Of a stretch of 64,000 bases of DNA, positions 7,226 to 52,654 are shown one piece after another. The stretch is from NCBI RefSeq assembly GCF_005049285.1, contig NZ_SOSC01000006.1:62001-126000 (forward strand), read 5' to 3'. This DNA is from Halorientalis salina (lineage in GTDB: Archaea; Halobacteriota; Halobacteria; Halobacteriales; Haloarculaceae). Position 1 is the first letter of the stretch. Every line of letters begins with the position of its first letter. Position numbers and translations under genes: made by a program. Below the pieces are notes generated by a model. That model saw nothing but the letters and a program-made list of their open reading frames with translations. It was not told where the DNA came from and did not search any database.

Positions 7226-8275
7226 ATGGCAGCAAGCGAAAACCTAGAGGACCTGCCGGGCGTCGGTCCGGCGACAGCGGAGAAGTTAGAGGAAAACGGG
7301 TTCGACTCCTATCAGGGCATCGCGGTCGCGAGCCCCGGGGAGCTCTCGAACACGGCGGACATCGGCGAGTCGAGCGCCTCCGACATCATCCAGGCCGCCC
7401 GCGAGGCCGCCGACATCGGCGGGTTCGAGTCGGGTGCACAGGTCCTGGAACGGCGCGAGCAGATCGGCAAGCTCACCTGGGGCGTCGACGAGGTCGACGA
7501 ACTGCTCGGCGGCGGCGTCGAGACCCAGTCCATCACCGAGGTGTACGGCGAGTTCGGGGCCGGGAAGTCCCAGGTCACCCACCAGCTGGCCGTCAACGTC
7601 CAGCTCCCGAAGGAACACGGCGGCCTCGAGGGCAGCGCCATCTTCGTCGACAGCGAGGACACGTTCCGCCCCGAGCGGATCGACCAGATGGTCCGGGGCC
7701 ACGACGACGAGGTCCTGGCCGCCGCGATGGAGCTCCACGGACTCGTCGGCGAGGACGAGGAGGCCGACCCCACCGACGAGGGCCTGCTGGAGGACCTCGT
7801 CGAGGTCATGCTCGACAACATCCACGTCGCGAAGGCCTTCAACTCCAACCACCAGATCCTGCTGGCCGAGAAGGCCAAGGAACTCGCCAGCGAGAGCCAG
7901 GACGACGAGTTCCCCGTTCGCCTGCTCGCGGTCGACTCCCTCACTGCGCACTTCCGCGCCGAGTACGTCGGCCGTGGCGAACTCGCCGAGCGCCAGCAGA
8001 AACTCAACAAACACCTCCACGACCTGATGCGCGTCGGCGACCTCAACAACACGGCCGTCGTCGTCACCAACCAGGTCGCCTCGAACCCCGATTCCTTCTT
8101 CGGGGACCCTACCCAGCCCATCGGCGGGAACATCCTGGGCCACACCTCCACGTTCCGCATCTACCTCCGCAAATCCAAGGGGAACAAGCGCATCGTCAAG
8201 CTCGTCGACGCGCCGAACCTCCCCGACGGCGAGGGCGTCATGCGCGTCGAGGAAGGCGGCCTCATGAACGAATAG
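7226..8275 (+). CDS. radA: DNA repair and recombination protein RadA
   Basis: 349 residues, the usual length without an intein. The N-terminal helix-hairpin-helix domain has [12 protein letters not shown] (10-21). The ATPase core has Walker A GEFGAGKS (108-115), the polymerisation/ATP-cap segment [12 protein letters not shown], Walker B LLAVDS near 230, and an L2-type region ending in TNQVASNPD. RadA is the archaeal Rad51/RecA homologue that forms filaments on single-stranded DNA for strand exchange. The gene is monocistronic, with its own TATA box and a structured element beginning directly after the stop, whose T6 run on the coding strand probably ends transcription. Confidence 0.98.
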
Positions 8276-8519
8276 TACCTTTTTTCGCTTCGGGTGCGCG
8301 AAGCGCACCTCTCAGCGAAAAAATCTACGCTAAAAAAGCCGGACGCGCCTGCGGCGCGTCCGGTGTCTTCGCGAGTAGCGTGGCGGCGAAGCCGCCACGA
8401 GCGATCGGCTCGGAAGACGCTAAGCGTCTTCCGGTGTCTGCATGAGTGCACCGCACGAACGCAGGGCCCTCAGAGCTTTACTCTGACAGTGAACCACGGC
8501 GCTTCGAGCCGCGGATGCT
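8276..8519 (-). repeat. Dispersed structured element, copy 1 (long, hairpin-rich)
   Basis: Read on the minus strand it begins AGCATCCG (8512-8519), followed by a short hairpin and TGGTTCAC, like copies at 10724, 12440 and 52424. It then holds CAGAG/CTCTG (8471-8485) and compact stems GGAAGACGC-TAA (8411-8433), CGTGGCGGC-GAA (8379-8399) and CCGGACGCGC (8339-8363). It ends with the family's T-strand, the terminal hairpin GGTGCGC-GAA-GCGCACC (8293-8309) and GAAAAAAGGTA. That last base directly follows the radA stop. On the radA strand the first transcribed bases after the stop are TACCTTTTTT, a likely terminator. No protein is encoded. Confidence 0.75.
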
Positions 8520-8653
8520 AACACAGCCGAATTAACCCGTTTTCTGCAACCGATGTAGCCCGCAGGCACTCGCTACGAACCCGAGACGAGGCCGCAACCG
8601 ACCAATAGCGTCGGCGCTGAACGGTTTTGGGGCTCGCTCCCGTAGCGTGACGA

Positions 8654-10866: not shown

Positions 10867-12270
10867 TTAGAACGGCCCGGGGCCGCCGGGACCGCCGCCC
10901 ATGCCGCCCATACCGCCGCCGCCCTGGCCGCCGCCCATCTGTTTCATCATCCGTTCCATGTCGGCGTCGCCCATGCCCTGGAACTGGTTGAGCGTCTTGG
11001 ACATCATCTTGTGCTGTTCGAGCAGTTCCTGGACCCGTTCTTCGGAGGTCCCCGACCCGCGGGCGATCCGCCGGACCTGGCTCGACCCGATGGAGCGTGG
11101 CTGTTCGAGTTCCGTCTCGGTCATCGAGTCCATGATGATGTCGAACTCGCGCATGCGGTCCTTGGTGACGTCCATGGCGTCGTCGGGCAACTGGTCCATC
11201 ATCCCGCCACCCATGCCGGGGATCATGTCCATCACCTGGTCTAGGGGCCCCATCTTGTCCATCGCGGACATCTGGTGGCGCATGTCCTTGAGGGTGAACT
11301 CCCCCTCCAGCATGTCCTCGGGGTCCCACTCGCCCTCTTCGGCCTGGGTCTCCTCCATCGCGCGCTCGACGCGCTCGGTCAACTGCTTGAGGTCGCCCAT
11401 CCCGAGCAGTCGGGAGATGAACCCGGAGGGCTCGAAGCGCTCGATGTCCTGGACCGTCTCGCCGGTCCCGAGGAAGGCGATCGACGAGTCGGTCTCGTTG
11501 ACTGCCGCGAGGGCACCGCCACCTTTCGCCGTCCCGTCGAGTTTGGTGATGGCGACGCCGTCGATGCCGATCGACTCCTCGAACTCCTGGGCCTGGTCTT
11601 TCGCCGACTGGCCCATCGCCGCGTCGATCACGAGCAGGTTCCGGTCGGGGTTGACCGCCCCGTCGATCCGCTCGATCTGGTCGATGAGTTCCTGGTTCAG
11701 CCCGTCCCGACCCGCCGTGTCGACGATGCGAACGTCGGCATCGCTCGTCGCTTCCAGGCCGTCCTCGGCGATCTCGACGGGATCGTCCGCGTCGGGGTCG
11801 CCGTAGAAGTCCACCTCGGCGTTCTCGGCCATCTGCTTGGACTGGTCGTAGGCACCGGGGCGGTCGGTGTCAGTCTGGATGATCGCGGGGCGCAGCCCCT
11901 TCTTCGAGAACCACCACGCCATCTTGGCGGCGGTCGTCGTCTTCCCCGACCCGTAGAGGCCGGCGAGCATGATCGTCTGGGGTTCCAGCGGGAGTTCGGT
12001 CGACTCGCCGATGAGTCCGACCATCTCCTCGTAGACCACGCGGAGTACCCAGTCGCGCGCGGACGTGCTGCTGGGCGGTTCCTCTTCCAGAGCGCGGGTC
12101 TTGATCGAGTCCGAGAGGTCCATCACCAGACTCGTGTCCACGTCGGCCTGGAGCAGGGATCGCTGGATCTCCTTGACGACGTCGTCGATGTCGTCCTCGC
12201 TGATGCGGGATTTCCCACGGAGGTCGTCGAGCGTCCCCCGAAGCGAACTCCCTAGATTATCGAGTACCAT
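10867..12270 (-). CDS. srp54: Signal recognition particle GTPase SRP54
   Basis: 467 residues. The N domain (1-90) is followed by the G domain with G1 [10 protein letters not shown] near 104-113, a DTDRPGA segment, DTAGRDGLN (G3) and [10 protein letters not shown] (G4). The C-terminal M domain is rich in methionine ([19 protein letters not shown] and beyond) and binds 7S RNA and signal sequences; it ends in a Gly/Met tail. SRP54 delivers nascent membrane and secreted proteins to FtsY, whose gene lies 0.8 kb upstream on the same strand. In many haloarchaea the two are close together. Here two structured elements and a small reading frame separate them. No 7S RNA gene was found in the window. 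Confidence 0.98.
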
Positions 12271-12299
12271 AGTTAGTTACACGGAAGAAGCCCCTCAGG

Positions 12300-12309
12300 A
12301 GATAAAGAC
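12300..12309 (-). promoter_or_regulatory. TATA-like box of srp54
   Basis: GGTCTTTATC on the minus strand, 30-39 nt upstream of the srp54 ATG (12270). The end of structured element copy 3 lies only 10 nt further upstream, so srp54 is transcribed from a promoter next to the element rather than by read-through from ftsY. Confidence 0.5.
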
Positions 12310-12319
12310 CTTTTCCAGT

Positions 12320-12440
12320 CCATCTTTTTCTTCGTCGGGTTCGCCTCCGGCGAACCACTCCTCGAAAAACATGGGTGAAAAAGGCGCGACTTCGCTTCGC
12401 TCGTCGCGTGAACCGCGCTCGCAGCGCTCGCGCGGATGCT
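12320..12440 (-). repeat. Dispersed structured element, copy 3, next to the srp54 promoter
   Basis: Read on the minus strand: AGCATCCG (12433-12440), a hairpin with GCGAGCGCTGCGAGCGC-type arms, GGTTCAC, a second imperfect stem, then a TTTTTCACCCATGTTTTTCGAGG-type T-strand. The terminal hairpin TTCGCC-GGA-GGCGAA follows, then CCCGACGAAGAAAAAGATGG. CCAT-TTTTTC of the T-strand pairs with GAAAAA-ATGG of the A-strand apart from one G-G mismatch. The sequence GTACTGACCACC just before AGCATCCG is also found before copy 6 at 52247, so the repeat unit may extend further 5'. Confidence 0.8.
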
Positions 12441-12571
12441 GGTGGTCAGTACAAGGCGCGTATGCAGCACGTCGCACACCGAGAATCGGAGCCATCTGAT
12501 TCGGTCAGTACAGTGTCTCAGCCACACGATGGTGACATCCGTTCAGCAACTGTGTACCGTGAGTCGCATAA

Positions 12572-12772
12572 TCAGGACGTTCTCTCATGAAGATAGAGCA
12601 GAGAGACGAAAAGTGAGAGACCGCCTGTGATTCCCGTAATTCCCATTGTCGTGAAATGATTCGGAATAACTACGTTCAGCACAAAGAGGTCGAAAAAGAA
12701 ATGGATCGATACCCAAATAAGAGCCACTGCTGCTGCATCGCGGAGTGGATGCTGTAATAGGGAACTAGCCAT
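12572..12772 (-). CDS. Small hypothetical two-span membrane protein
   Basis: A 66-residue frame from ATG 12772. Residues 13-33 (AVALIWVSIHFFFDLFVL and neighbours) and 43-60 (GITGITGGLSLFVSLLYL) are hydrophobic enough for two membrane helices. The local sequence is distinctly less GC-rich than the genes around it, and codon use looks unlike the neighbours, which suggests acquired DNA or a relic. It lies between structured-element copies 3 and 4. I do not recognise a family. It may be a real small membrane protein or a fragment of a larger lost gene. Confidence 0.45.
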   Translation of the reverse strand: MASSLLQHPLRDAAAVALIWVSIHFFFDLFVLNVVIPNHFTTMGITGITGGLSLFVSLLYLHERTS

Positions 12773-12932
12773 TTGATTGACTTGAATTCGCCACTTGCAA
12801 ATGCTTTCTCACTGTGGCACATCCGACGCTGCTGGTCGTCTCGGGATAATCGACTTGGAGCGAGAATGATATCATTCGGCGTTCTGGGTCGTCATCACTT
12901 CTTGCTAAGTTCGCACACACAGTGAGTGCACA

Positions 12933-13075
12933 AGCATCCGGCGCGCTTGCGCGCCGGTTCACCGGACGCGAGTGCAACGAGCGTCCGGCGGTTTTAGTCC
13001 AGGTTTTGCGACGGAGTGGTTCCGCAACGAGCGCCGACGGCGCGAGTGAGGAAACCCGAGGGAGTAAAAAGTGGG
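12933..13075 (+). repeat. Dispersed structured element, copy 4, beside the ftsY stop
   Basis: AGCATCCG (12933-12940). Hairpin 1 is CCGGCGCGC/GCGCGCCGG (12938-12957), then TTCAC. Hairpin 2 is CCGGACGC (12962-12969) with GCGTCCGG (12981-12988). The T-strand is TTTTAGTCCAGGTTTTGCGA. The terminal arm contains GCGCC-GAC-GGCGC (13031-13043), and CCCGAGGGAGTAAAAAGTGGG ends at 13075. The ftsY stop codon is 4 nt further on, on the other strand. The hairpin sequences differ from copies 2 and 9 while pairing is kept, which is direct covariation. Confidence 0.8.
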
Positions 13076-13079
13076 GGTG

Positions 13080-42000: not shown

Positions 42001-42378
42001 GTCCGTGCGAACGAGATGTTGCAGTCTGTCTTCCGCAATCTACTGAAAAACGCGATCGAACACAACGACAAGGCGGTCCCCGAAGTGGTGGTCTCGGCCA
42101 CCCAGCGCGAGGACAGCGTCGTCGTCGACGTCGCCGACAACGGCCCGGGCATCCCCGAAGCCCAGCGAAGCGAGATCTTCGGCAAAGGCGAAAAGGGCCT
42201 GGAGAGCGACGGGACCGGCATCGGTCTCTATCTCGTGGCCACGCTCGTCGAGCAGTACGGCGGCGGCGTGTGGATCAGCGACAGAGCGGAGCGGAGCTCC
42301 GCAGGCAACCGGACGCAGTCCGGTGACAACGACCCCGACGGCGCGGTGTTCCACGTCGAACTCCCGAAAGCCGAATGA
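39022..42378 (+). CDS. Seven-PAS-domain sensor histidine kinase
   Basis: 1118 residues with no membrane span. Seven PAS domains can be counted by their repeating pattern (for example AVITVDRELTVLFANPAVERVLGYEP near 35-60, IIVHDGDGAILDVNDQTV near 415, VYITDTDGTIEYVNSAF near 535). Each is followed by a DITER(K/R)E-type PAC linker. HisKA follows with VRHDIRNDL (phospho-acceptor His near 896), and HATPase with NLLKNAIEHN (N box) and DNGPGIPE...GTGIGLYL (G boxes). It should be a cytosolic multi-input sensor; at least some PAS domains may bind haem or flavin, but that cannot be read here. No response regulator gene is adjacent, as is common in haloarchaea. Confidence 0.92.
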   Translation: MPPVSTDDEADTWADTLDGGFCRAVAEHVPAAVITVDRELTVLFANPAVERVLGYEPETLVGRQLEAVIPERRRRDELERLEEAVCEPDTAGSELQLRVETDSGRERSLSLSVTEHEYDGETVFTGVVRDVSERQQTTELEQQRELFERVQDLADVGIWEYDPTTEELTWSAGVREIHGVDESFEPTMADAIEFYHPADRDEIERLIARALEDGEFYDTDLRIVRADGDVRDVRSRGEVVTDAEGNVELLRGVFQDITERKERERELERYEALAENMDEMAFVVGADRQLEYANRSATAYTGRSTEDLVGRSVTSLVSEFVVDEGAPERFERALRDVFDHENGAEPDRLEGRLKLPSGEVVVEYQFSSFVSDGERKAIVVARDVTERRERERELLESQKRQRALFEQSPDAIIVHDGDGAILDVNDQTVADLGYGREELLSMNAADIETGIDAEELTSKWARLDVGDKWKLESRHRRKDGSTFPVELWINKVEIGGEPRFIALSRDITDRKASERDSRRFRKAVEQAAHAVYITDTDGTIEYVNSAFEEQTGYAAEAAVGETPHILNSGRHDEAYFEEMWDTILSGEVWKREVVNERADGTEYYADQTVAPIEGHDGEIEAFVAVNRDITARKEMESKLRRREARFRMMFQRHSAPMLLIEPDSGRIEDANDAATEFYGYSWDELTGMDIDEINCQCAEEVATERKRAEREERNHFVFEHELASGETRTVEVHSSPIPDGDEELLFSVIHDITERREYERELESYKELVDNVPVGIYRNTPGEDGEFVEVNPAMVEMFDAESATQLCETAVSELYADPNQREAFSDRVDEEGIVTEAELRLETLAGDPFWASVTAITNETGARTYFDGVILDITERKEYEQRLKQQRDNLEILNQMVRHDIRNDLQLVLAYAELLEDRVDDTGAEYLETVIESTENAVELTKSARDLADVMLQTDAEHDRTDLALVLEQQVDEIRSEHTDAVVAVEGQLPDVEVRANEMLQSVFRNLLKNAIEHNDKAVPEVVVSATQREDSVVVDVADNGPGIPEAQRSEIFGKGEKGLESDGTGIGLYLVATLVEQYGGGVWISDRAERSSAGNRTQSGDNDPDGAVFHVELPKAE

Positions 42379-42442: not shown

Positions 42443-42467
42443 AGCCACAGTGGCGAACCATCGGGTG

Positions 42468-43547
42468 ATGCTGCTGGTCCTGTGTGTGGACCTGGACGAC
42501 GACCTCGGCCGGAAGACGGGGCTGGAGACGCCGGTCATCGGCAGGGACGCCGTCGAGGACGCCGCCGTCGCGCTCGCGACCGAAGACCCCGAGGACAGCG
42601 ACGTCAACGTCCTGTTCGAGGGAATCCACCTCCACGACGACCTCGCCGACGAGCCCGTCGAAGTCGCCGCCGTCACGGGGTTAGACGGGAGCGACGTCGC
42701 CGCCAACCGCAAGGTCGGCGAGGAAGTCGACACCGTCCTGGCGAGCATCTCCGCCAGCGACGACGTGCGCGCCATCGTCGTCACCGACGGCGCACAGGAC
42801 GAATCGGTCCTCCCGGTCATCCGCTCACGGGTCACCATCGACAGCGTCCGTCGAGTCGTCGTTCGCCAGGCCCAGGACCTGGAATCGATGTACTACACCA
42901 TCAAGCAGGTCCTCGACGACCCCGAGACGCGCGGGACCATCCTCGTCCCCCTGGGCATCCTGTTGCTCATCTACCCGCTCGCGATCATCGCCGACCACCT
43001 CGGCCTGCCGGGAGCCGTCTTCGGCTTTACGTCGGGATTGCTCGGCCTGTACGTCCTGGGACGGGGCCTCGGCGCGGAGCGCGCGCTCGACGCCGCCGTC
43101 GAACGCGGTCGCTCCGTGCTCTATGCCGGTCGCGTGACGCTCATCACCTACGTCGTCGCCGCCGCCCTGCTCGTCATCGGCGGCGTCGAGGGCGTCCAGA
43201 CGCTCGAATCGCTGCAAAACGCCGGGGAGAACCTCTCCGCGCTGGAGGTGCTGGCCGCACTCCTGTTCGGAGCTATCCGGTGGTTCGCCGCCGCCGGCAT
43301 CACCTCCAGCCTCGGCCGCGTGACCGACGAGTACCTCGACGGCGCCTTCGAGTGGCGCTACCTCAACGCACCCTTCTACGTGCTCGCCATCGCCGCCGTC
43401 CTCCACGGCGTGAGCGCCTACTTCCTCGGGAACGTCTCGCTGTCGTACCTGGCCGCCGTCCTCACGGGCGGGACCATCCTCGGCCTCTTCAGCACCCTGG
43501 CCTTTGCCGTCGCCGAATCGCGCTTCCCGAACAAGGCCTCGGCGTGA
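42468..43547 (+). CDS. DUF373 family membrane protein
   Basis: 359 residues from ATG 42468 (MLLVLCVDLDDDLGRKTG, the family opening). The N-terminal 130 residues are soluble with a DDDLGRK motif and DGAQDESVLPVI. Six or so membrane helices follow from about residue 152 (GTILVPLGILLLIYPLAIIAD) to the end. DUF373 is restricted to archaea and is of unknown function; the acidic DDD motif may bind metal. It is convergent with the polyprenyl synthase gene, and the 386-nt gap between them is filled with a hairpin array. Confidence 0.85.
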   Translation: MLLVLCVDLDDDLGRKTGLETPVIGRDAVEDAAVALATEDPEDSDVNVLFEGIHLHDDLADEPVEVAAVTGLDGSDVAANRKVGEEVDTVLASISASDDVRAIVVTDGAQDESVLPVIRSRVTIDSVRRVVVRQAQDLESMYYTIKQVLDDPETRGTILVPLGILLLIYPLAIIADHLGLPGAVFGFTSGLLGLYVLGRGLGAERALDAAVERGRSVLYAGRVTLITYVVAAALLVIGGVEGVQTLESLQNAGENLSALEVLAALLFGAIRWFAAAGITSSLGRVTDEYLDGAFEWRYLNAPFYVLAIAAVLHGVSAYFLGNVSLSYLAAVLTGGTILGLFSTLAFAVAESRFPNKASA

Positions 43548-43590
43548 TTGCCGACAACTGAAAACAGTTCGCGAACTGGGCTCACGAAAC

Positions 43591-43920
43591 ACTCCACGGC
43601 TCCCCCCGGTCGCCGTTCCGTTTCGAGGTCTCGCTTCGTCGCCGGGCGACCCGTGAGTCGCCCGGCTGTCACCGGACTACGTCCGGTGGCCCGCGGGACT
43701 GCGTCCCGCCCTGCAAGCGAGAGCGAAGCTCTCGCCCTGCTCGACCTCGCCCTCACCGTCGCCAGCCTACGGCCGGCTGTCATCGGCCTCTGGCCGATTG
43801 CCCGAGGGACTCCGTCCCTCCCTGCTAGAGGGACCTCCGGTCCCTCACCGCTCACGTACTGCGCTCACGGTTCACTCCACGGCTCCCCCCGTCGCTGTTC
43901 CGTTTCGAGGTTTCGCTCCG
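43591..43920. repeat. Hairpin array flanked by about 47-bp direct repeats
   Basis: The flanking repeats are 43591-43638 and 43874-43920 (ACTCCACGGCTCCCCCCG start, two or three mismatches plus a 1-nt indel). Between them lie perfect hairpins: GCCGGGCGAC/GTCGCCCGGC (43641-43666), CACCGGAC-TAC (43670-43688), GCGGGAC-TGC (43693-43709), GCGAGAGC-GAA (43717-43735), ATCGGCC-TCT (43782-43798), GAGGGAC-TCC (43804-43820), GAGGGACC-TCC (43828-43846). All but the first have 3-nt loops and different stems. The gap lies between two convergent gene ends. No reading frame is supported. Confidence 0.85.
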
Positions 43921-43933
43921 CTCAACCTCGCCC

Positions 43934-44776
43934 TCACCGTTCCCGAACAACCACGAACTCCGCGAGATCCTGCAGATACGCCAGCGCCTGCGAGTCCGTC
44001 ACGTCGACCGCCGAGATGGCGGCCAGCGCGTCGTCCGACAGGTCCCGCGCCCGCTCGTTGGCTTCTGCCGGCGTCAGATCGGTCACCTGCACGAGCGAGG
44101 GGCGGTCCATCGTCTCGTCGTGTCCCGTCGGTTTCCCCAGGTCGTCGGCGTCCGCCGTCGCGTCGAGGACGTCGTCGCGCATCTGGAACGCGATCCCGAC
44201 GCGCTCGGCGTACTGCCCGAACGCTTCGACGGTGTAGGCGTCGGCGTCCGCGGCGATCGCACCGAGTTCAGCCGCCGCTCGGAACAGCGCCCCGGTCTTC
44301 CGTCGGGCCAGTTCCATGTACTCGTCTTCGGTCTCGGGCTGGGCGACCAGTTCCGTGGCCTCTCCCTCGCCGAGTTCGACCATCGCCTCCGAGACGGCCT
44401 GCATCGCCCGCTCGTCGGCCGAGAACAGTGCGAAGGCCTCGCCGAGCAGTCCGTCCGAGGCGATGATGGCCGGGCCAAACCCGAACTCCGCCCACGCGCT
44501 CGGGACGCCCCGGCGAACGTCCGAGTCGTCGATGATGTCGTCGATCACCAGCGAGGCGTTGTGGACGAGCTCGATGCCGACGGCGAGATCGACCGCGTCC
44601 CCGGGGTCGCCGCCGAGGGCCTCACAGACGAGCACGGTGACCGTCGGTCGGACGCGTTTCCCGCCCGAGAGCGTGACGTGTCGGACCTCGTCAGCCAACT
44701 CCGACGGTTCGACGCCGTCGAGAACCTCCTCGAGACGCTCCTCGACGCGCGCCCGTCGGCTCTCAAGGTACTCCAT
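43934..44776 (-). CDS. Polyprenyl diphosphate synthase (GGPP/GFPP synthase type)
   Basis: 280 residues. The first aspartate-rich motif is D79-D80-II-D83-D84. GGKRVRP (38-44) binds the allylic/isopentenyl diphosphate. The second DDxxD is D201-D202-VL-D205. Residues before the first motif (HNASLVI) are small, with no bulky aromatic at the position that limits FPP synthases, so a C20 or C25 product is likely. Such products feed archaeal membrane lipid synthesis. Its 3' end lies directly next to the hairpin array. Confidence 0.9.
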   Translation of the reverse strand: MEYLESRRARVEERLEEVLDGVEPSELADEVRHVTLSGGKRVRPTVTVLVCEALGGDPGDAVDLAVGIELVHNASLVIDDIIDDSDVRRGVPSAWAEFGFGPAIIASDGLLGEAFALFSADERAMQAVSEAMVELGEGEATELVAQPETEDEYMELARRKTGALFRAAAELGAIAADADAYTVEAFGQYAERVGIAFQMRDDVLDATADADDLGKPTGHDETMDRPSLVQVTDLTPAEANERARDLSDDALAAISAVDVTDSQALAYLQDLAEFVVVRER

Positions 44777-51393: not shown

Positions 51394-51541
51394 CCCACCT
51401 TTTACTTCGTCGGGTTCGCTCGCTCCGTCGCCGGCGCTATGCGCCGGCTGCCTGGGAGAGCTTCGCTCTCCCTCCGCTCACGAACCGCTTCTCGCAAAAG
51501 CTGGACCAAAACTGCTGGCCGCTCACACAGTTCGCGGCCAG
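51394..51541 (-). repeat. Dispersed structured element, copy 6, between two methyltransferase tails
   Basis: Read on the minus strand from just after the methyltransferase stop: CTGGCCGC/GCGGCCAG hairpin (51515-51541), CAGTTTTGGTCCAGCTTTTGCGAGAAGCGGTTCGTGAGC, a nested stem GGGAGAGC-GAA-GCTCTCCC, then GCCGGCGC-ATA-GCGCCGGC, and the A-strand ACCCGACGAAGTAAAAGGTGGG. It lacks AGCATCCG like copy 5. Its 5' end touches the stop codon and its 3' end touches the displaced gene tail. Confidence 0.78.
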
Positions 51542-52169: not shown

Positions 52170-52200
52170 TGCCCCATTTTGGGTACTCAGCGACATAATA

Positions 52201-52247
52201 CCATCTTTTTCTTCGGCGGGTGGTCTCGCTGCGCTCGTGCGGATGCT
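52201..52247 (-). repeat. Dispersed structured element, copy 7 (truncated)
   Basis: Read on the minus strand: AGCATCCG (52240-52247), a short arm, CCACCCGCCGAAGAAAAAGATGG ending at 52201. The middle part (T-strand) is missing. Upstream of AGCATCCG is CTACTGACCACC, as at copy 3. It is head to head with copy 8, separated by 33 nt, and its A-strand end is about 30 nt upstream of the methyltransferase start. Confidence 0.7.
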
Positions 52248-52280
52248 GGTGGTCAGTAGAGGCTGTGCAGTGAGCACGGA

Positions 52281-52395
52281 AGCATCCACCGAGCGAACGA
52301 AGTGAGTGAGTCGTCCGGCAGTTTTAGTCCAGGTTTTACGAGGAGTGGTGCCCGCAGGCCGGCGGCCGAGGACACCCGACGACGTAAAAAGTGGG
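52281..52395 (+). repeat. Dispersed structured element, copy 8
   Basis: AGCATCCA (52281-52288), a shortened hairpin region without TTCAC, then GTTTTAGTCCAGGTTTTACGAGGAGTGGTG, a terminal stem (CCGGC-GGCCG region), and ACCCGACGACGTAAAAAGTGGG ending at 52395. The T- and A-strands match the copy at 12933 most closely. Confidence 0.78.
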
Positions 52396-52423
52396 CACGC
52401 ACACTGAGCAACGTGGAGATACG

Positions 52424-52607
52424 AGCATCCGGCGAGATTGCTCGCCGGTTCACTGAACGCGAGGCGAAGCCGAGCGTTCAGCCTTTTTCACCCATGTACA
52501 CGAGAGCTCGCTCTCGTGTGCCCACCAGAAATCTCTGATTTCTGGGGATGTTTTTGCGAGGAGGGGTGCGCGAACGGAGTGAGCGCACCCGACGAGCAAA
52601 AAGATGG
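52424..52607 (+). repeat. Dispersed structured element, copy 9, upstream of the ATP synthase operon
   Basis: AGCATCCG (52424-52431), hairpin CCGGCGAG-ATTG-CTCGCCGG (52429-52448), TTCAC, CTGAACGC/GCGTTCAG stem (52453-52481). Two extra hairpins follow within the T-strand: ACACGAGAGC/GCTCTCGTGT (52498-52519) and CCAGAAAT/ATTTCTGG (52525-52545). Then GATGTTTTTGCGAGGAGGGGTGCGC, the terminal arm, and CACCCGACGAGCAAAAAGATGG ending at 52607. The TATA box of atpH begins 12 nt downstream. The extra hairpins look like a nested insertion. Confidence 0.8.
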
Positions 52608-52618
52608 TTTCGCAACTA

Positions 52619-52627
52619 CCATATAGG
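52619..52627 (+). promoter_or_regulatory. TATA-like box of the atp operon
   Basis: CCATATAGG, about 24 nt upstream of ATG 52646 and 33 nt upstream of ATG 52655. The start site would therefore be near 52646. Confidence 0.55.
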
Positions 52628-52654
52628 CGCTTCTGCAATCTCCGCATGATTCAA

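Follow-up and report, generated by a model that had tools for sequence, protein, structure and literature searches.

We think it probable, at roughly 70%, that the hairpin array between two convergent genes of the window (the whole 64,000-nucleotide stretch of Halorientalis salina DNA analysed here) is formed by clustered and nested members of a haloarchaeal family of tiny mobile palindromes, which are non-coding and have no transposase of their own. The stems of these palindromes covary between copies while their linkers stay conserved. As judged from comparison with homologous loci, matching empty sites show that units have inserted, and the same comparisons demonstrate dispersal, tolerance in frame within genes, variable unit number, and nested and tandem arrays.

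The hairpin array and its genomic setting

An earlier note on this DNA had reported an array of compact hairpins, mostly with 3-nt loops. Indeed, six perfect triloop stems of 7–8 bp and one 10-bp stem were found between the DUF373 and polyprenyl-synthetase genes, with the loops that it had listed (Table 1). The note had staked its case on enrichment over shuffled sequence, and the stems lie far above that level: the array holds 6 triloop stems of at least 7 bp against 0.048 expected, with a maximum of one across 1000 dinucleotide shuffles, and its folding z-scores against shuffles are -6.7 (DNA) and -6.4 (RNA). A search for Rfam RNA families at gathering score returned no match anywhere in the window. 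Triloop hairpins might have been common to gene ends throughout this genome, but the rarity of arrays led us to reject this idea: only 2 of 270 intergenic regions in a 400-kb sample contain at least three such stems. In general, intergenic DNA has more triloop stems of at least 8 bp than shuffled versions of it (8 vs. 0.6).

Table 1. Positions in the window of the array, its hairpins, the associated repeats and the neighbouring genes.
Feature	Position	Strand	Remarks
45-bp module in the coding sequence of a PAS histidine kinase	42283–42327	+	encodes RAERSSAGNRTQSGD in frame; kinase upstream of the array
DUF373 family gene, left neighbour	42450–43547	+	PF04123, E 1.8e-115
Repeat R, copy R1, head	43564–43638	+	interrupted by unit 1; tail 43740–43759
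Array unit 1	43639–43739	+	~101 bp, four hairpins, inserted inside R1
Hairpin, 10-bp stem, 6-nt loop	43641–43666		unit 1
Hairpin, perfect 8-bp stem, TAC loop	43670–43688		unit 1
Hairpin, perfect 7-bp stem, TGC loop	43693–43709		unit 1
Hairpin, perfect 8-bp stem, GAA loop	43717–43735		unit 1
Array unit 2	43761–43846	+	four hairpins; linkers TGTC, TGCC, CTGCTA
Hairpin GCCAGCC.TAC.GGCCGGC	43761–43777		unit 2; one A.C mismatch, seventh triloop
Hairpin, perfect 7-bp stem, TCT loop	43782–43798		unit 2
Hairpin, perfect 7-bp stem, TCC loop	43804–43820		unit 2
Hairpin, perfect 8-bp stem, TCC loop	43828–43846		unit 2
Repeat R, copy R2, uninterrupted	43847–43940	+	contains GAGGTT-TCGCTCCGCTC-AACCTC
Polyprenyl (geranylgeranyl) diphosphate synthase gene, convergent right neighbour	43934–44776	-	PF00348
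Two-hairpin module GCCGGCGC.TAT.GCGCCGGC - TGCCT - GGGAGAGC.TTC.GCTCTCCC	51430–51472	+	second convergent intergenic region (L270)

The array is made of two related units, 111 bp apart and 73% identical. Their linkers are nearly identical despite differences in the stems, and two of these differences are paired: ACCGGAC/GTCCGGT in unit 1 corresponds to ATCGGCC/GGCCGAT in unit 2, and GCGGGAC/GTCCCGC to GAGGGAC/GTCCCTC. Homologues of unit 2 in other haloarchaea (80–87% identity) have the same linkers and different stems.

The whole block had been described as flanked by 47-bp direct repeats. Such repeats exist, but they are imperfect (82% identity over 45 nt, 89% over 36 nt), and the left one is interrupted, the first half of the array lying inside it. 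When 101 bp (43639–43739) are taken out, the flanks of R1 join into a copy of repeat R that can be aligned with R2 from end to end. The direct repeats are thus two copies of another repeat, one of which was split by the array; many genomes of the order contain this repeat at dispersed positions. The break in R1 falls in the loop of the hairpin that R itself forms, GAGGTC-TCGCTTCGCTC-GACCTC, and unit 2 lies between R1 and R2. Repeat R (TCCACGGCTCCCTCCGGTCGCCGTTCCGTTTCGAGG...) is common in genomes of the window's family and also occurs in 63-bp tandem arrays (L079); its stem, GAGG.../...CCTC around a conserved 11-nt loop, differs among copies yet stays complementary.

The DUF373/polyprenyl synthase gene pair is kept in 8 of 8 species of the genus. 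(Genes were predicted with a small home-made caller, and all comparisons used one genome per species.) The search of relatives that the earlier note had advised, at the same and other gene ends, revealed dispersed arrays elsewhere; at the same junction, seven sister species have 77–599 bp of other sequence and no such array. One of these junctions (L011, DUF373–idsA) contains several tandem copies of another repeat, of ~62 bp.

Other hairpin-bearing repeats were seen as well. The earlier note had pointed to similar 3-nt-loop stems in another element of the window; these stems exist (8293–8433), but they belong to a different dispersed repeat (8275–8653, 12270–13079 and 52196–52645) with variable triloop stems and conserved, T-rich linkers (cttttttcgcttcgGGT...ACCtctc..aaaaaatctacgctaaaaaagC). 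It has 13 matches in this genome and possibly resembles the PATE elements discussed below. A further two-hairpin module, GTCGTT-H-TGATCA-H-AACGAC, also with variable stems, lies in or adjoining TnpB genes (G000:C11:159471-160508, within L028–L029; L203, L205, L209, L267 and L268).

Conserved linkers and covarying stems across the family

The basic unit measures ~45 bp (45–47) and consists of a pair of triloop hairpins in the arrangement hairpin(17)-TGCC-hairpin(19)-CTGTC. With H17 and H19 denoting triloop hairpins 17 and 19 nt long, the design common to the best loci is H17-TGTC-H17-TGCC-H19-CTGCCA-H19-GCTG. The two-hairpin module at 51430–51472 matches a module in TnpB 3' ends at 81%. Pieces of the array were found in 189 of 392 genomes of the order, part of these matches being due to repeat R. 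A strict pattern, composed of the linkers and partial stems, was then applied to 84,980 species with one genome each, and it identified 29 loci, mostly in Halorubrum and none outside Halobacteria. A looser pattern, H17 plus linker, yielded 368 matches in 51 Halorubrum genomes, as opposed to 58 for a control consisting of the same pattern read backwards. The respective numbers in the window's own genome were 9 and 2, marking it as a low-copy host. The linkers TGTC, TGCC and CTGCC/CTGTC are conserved across unrelated loci, and genes and intergenic DNA share the order of the hairpins. Viral contigs searched with a two-hairpin pattern gave no match. Many of the Halorubrum units (L061, L064, L069, L252–L263) belong to a longer intergenic repeat with a TATA-like CTTATAA, preceded by '...gcggtggcgcg...' and followed by 'gacgaggctggggaggtgtgaggtgcggt...gggactcaaaggggcagtc'; this repeat is possibly a non-coding RNA, or some other element, that has so far escaped recognition.

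Two stem pairs are not constrained by the looser pattern at all and a third only by half, and sequences were not selected for pairing there. Among the Halorubrum matches listed, these pairs were complementary in 139, 130 and 131 of 150 cases; after partner shuffling, the counts were 109, 73 and 62. The window's genus gave 44, 42 and 39 of 53, compared with 31, 18 and 16 when shuffled. The loops are also restricted: in 103 of 120 fully paired stems among the matches listed, the loop, closed by C-G, was either GNA or its complement TNC, so one strand or the other carried GNA. In DNA, mini-hairpins with a GNA loop have exceptional stability (PMC4686876). Since GNA loops occur on either strand, we infer that a property of the DNA is favoured over one of an RNA transcribed from a single strand. 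Copies inside genes decay through unpaired substitutions (L121, L131, L146), suggesting that intact pairing is of importance to active copies but of none to the host gene. Given that stem sequences vary, any recognition would need to rely on shape, loop or linker.

Filled and empty insertion sites

The clearest series of sites lies in a gene that, from its motifs, we named 5-formyltetrahydrofolate cyclo-ligase-like. Among 30 Halorubrum species, the relevant segment is 87 or 90 nt long in 14 (empty) and 132, 144, 177 or 219 nt long in the 16 others (filled). The 45–132 extra bases occur at one site, are always a multiple of three and have a basic step of 45 bp; the corresponding hairpin counts are 0, 2, 4 or ~6. 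Variation in hairpin number, which the earlier note had proposed to test between strains, was thus found between species, at an orthologous in-gene site. The tree of this gene, used to count gains and losses, is poorly resolved, with at least two changes forced. A near-exact tandem duplication of a 45-bp unit is present in L124.

A filled site also exists in the window itself. Where its PAS histidine kinase reads VWISD-RAERSSAGNRTQSGD-NDPDGAVF, the homologue L152 has no unit and reads VWVED-NDPEGAVF. Other genes have insertions of 15, 30 or 45 residues relative to their homologues, in-gene insertions being multiples of 15 codons, and further filled/empty pairs include a purD-like gene (L095 vs. 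L022) and L062 vs. L063. For 21 of the 23 in-gene arrays, the better-scoring frame has the same strand and phase and encodes peptides like (D)SEAQRASGSRTQSGD; the other two are ambiguous. In a separate observation, the N-boxes of three kinases (L071, L075, L179) contain VEHGST...VEHG duplications, in which sequence of the gene itself recurs as the hairpin GTGGAACACGGTTCCAC, as though the palindrome had been made by fold-back copying.

Three units of the window's genome occupy the apical loop of a hairpin at the 3' end of TnpB elements (CGCGCCGT...ACGGCGCGGAGGATGTCA; L246, L247 and L248), and their H17 stems differ from each other by paired changes. Related TnpB 3' ends have the same hairpin with no unit in it (L220, L265, L266, L273). 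The units therefore look like insertions, not like the ends of the element. Insert junctions vary: TGTC, GTC or CCG is repeated, a pattern that fits either target duplication or a fixed element end.

Comparison with known elements, possible movers and rival explanations

REP/RPE-type palindromes are well studied in bacteria, and a tyrosine transposase, RAYT, has been proposed as the mover for some of them. The present family is REP/RPE-like in its behaviour and close to the haloarchaeal PATE and SMR elements, although it fits the full definition of none. REPs are dispersed palindromes of 20–40 bp with short loops that occur in dimers and clusters and also in genes; their families, among them GTAG and CGTC, have a stem consensus and the corresponding tetranucleotide as a tag at one end of each palindrome, and the CGTC family, which is without a dedicated transposase, has stems of 8–9 bp, loops of 4–5 nt, a short unpaired tail and, in many repeats, a tag changed to TGTC (PMC3733652). 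The TGTC linker of our units resembles this last variant, but loop length and stem ends differ, and linkers reading TGTC, TGCC and CTGCC/CTGTC take the place of a GTAG/CGTC tag. Nor do the units come with a RAYT (Y1, TnpAREP): the Halorubrum genome G011 contains 14 pattern matches and no match to Y1_Tnp.

Rickettsia palindromic elements (RPE) are palindromic repeats found in frame in unrelated protein genes (summarised in PMC3733652). Our units likewise sit in frame in unrelated protein genes that have empty homologues; RPE, however, are bacterial and of different sequence, whereas the strict pattern was found in Halobacteria only. To our knowledge, no design of linkers plus covarying stems is known for RPE. 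PARCEL coding repeats are similarly palindromic, in frame and mobile in coding sequence, but they are tandem motifs at the protein level and were reported absent from the archaeal genomes then available (PMC2996958).

A search of the open-licence literature for an earlier description of an H17-TGCC-H19 family in haloarchaea found none; instead, it led to PATE and SMR of Haloquadratum. In the portions of PMC3119063 on which we draw, the PATEs and SMR-A of Haloquadratum walsbyi are presented as non-coding, transposase-free and palindrome-rich, and their mobilisation is called enigmatic. PATEs carry near-terminal palindromes related to IS605 ends, and the terminal-only ones are just 52 bp long; SMR-A, of ~110 bp with prominent terminal inverted repeats, inserts in near-terminal palindromes of IS605-type elements (same portions). 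Like SMR-A, our units insert into palindromes, namely the TnpB 3'-end hairpin loop and the R hairpin, and in-gene insertions are also common. Their length and their two unlike hairpins set them apart from SMR-A, and the fixed linker and in-frame gene copies from both SMR-A and PATEs; covarying stems are not described for either in those portions of the source. With regard to PATEs, it is also relevant that TnpB ends related to the three filled ones do without units. A PATE makes no target duplication; the TGTC, GTC or CCG repeated at the junctions of our units may be such a duplication or a fixed element end.

We propose that the units would move as DNA, by way of hairpins forming in single strands during replication, and that recognition would depend not on the stem sequence but on the shape of the hairpin, its highly stable C-GNA-G loop and the linker. 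Insertions within genes could persist, since each unit contributes 15 hydrophilic residues and no stop, and larger arrays may have grown by units inserting into units and by tandem duplication. One candidate mover is a trans-acting enzyme of the IS200/IS605 type. Among Y1 transposases, the IS200 subclass is the only one observed in Archaea, RAYT not having been seen there (PMC6006769). As G011 has 14 matches and no Y1 transposase, the units can persist in a genome that has no IS200-type enzyme of its own. Direct linkage to an IS200/IS605 transposase was examined and rejected: the hairpin pairs near TnpA, in or beside tnpB, have the other linker type (TGATCA). Directly downstream of 30 TnpB loci, no such hairpin was seen save one chance-like stem. 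The alternative candidate is a replication-linked template switch that may also recopy one stem arm onto the other; such switching could add copies and would account for the perfect arms. A bolder reading, which we consider rather unlikely, is that the identity of the element resides in its linkers, loops and shape, and that the stems are rewritten arm-from-arm during or between moves, so that pairing is kept while the sequence drifts.

It seems improbable that the hairpins are bidirectional terminators or 3'-end stabilisers acting in RNA at convergent gene ends and multiplied because they are functional. In favour of this view, the array does lie between convergent genes, and the 23 intergenic arrays of assignable context comprise 10 convergent, 9 codirectional and 4 divergent cases; against it, 23 of 50 distinct arrays are inside coding sequence, in frame. 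A single Haloferax hairpin terminated 59% of transcripts in vivo, but the mapped intergenic terminators of that genus carry a T-stretch (PMC7237163); the longest T-run in 43548–43933 is 3 on the + strand and 4 on the - strand. GNA loops on either strand, rather than on one transcribed strand, and the decay of in-gene stems also weigh against this explanation. From the lack of a T-stretch, the location of about half of the arrays in genes and the seven sister species without an array at this gene pair, we conclude that terminator function is not the main explanation. The earlier note's preference for a cassette over a terminator is in keeping with these dispersed, insertable modules and with an intergenic region devoid of a long T-run.

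We also give little credence to a local, non-mobile origin, in which template switching (quasi-palindrome correction and tandem duplication) makes the palindromes and sequence bias makes them similar. The same linkers, TGTC, TGCC and CTGCC, and the same two-hairpin order at unrelated loci need a shared source, and the pattern is confined to Halobacteria even though other GC-rich genomes were scanned. Still, perfect arms, short loops, paired changes and the tandem duplication in L124 are what fold-back copying should produce, and the VEHGST hairpin of the kinase N-boxes copies its own gene. Finally, a string of protein-binding or recombination sites (nucleoid, recombinase or integron-like cassette) would agree with the regular spacing of similar palindromes and with their genome-wide dispersal; we judge it very unlikely, as the stems vary freely, leaving no conserved duplex sequence to bind, and copies lie in unrelated genes.

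A family of mobile palindromes thus remains our preferred reading. Its units account for 15-residue insertions seen in proteins of haloarchaea and probably also for many spurious open reading frames. The unusual design, with fixed linkers and freely covarying stems, is accompanied by many orthologous filled and empty sites, some of them in frame in metabolic and signalling genes, and the family makes it testable, in tractable organisms, how transposase-less palindromes spread and why changing stems stay perfect. If the stems are indeed rewritten, this would be the first example of such a system in Archaea, operating without a RAYT, and proteins would be reshaped in in-frame steps of 15 residues.
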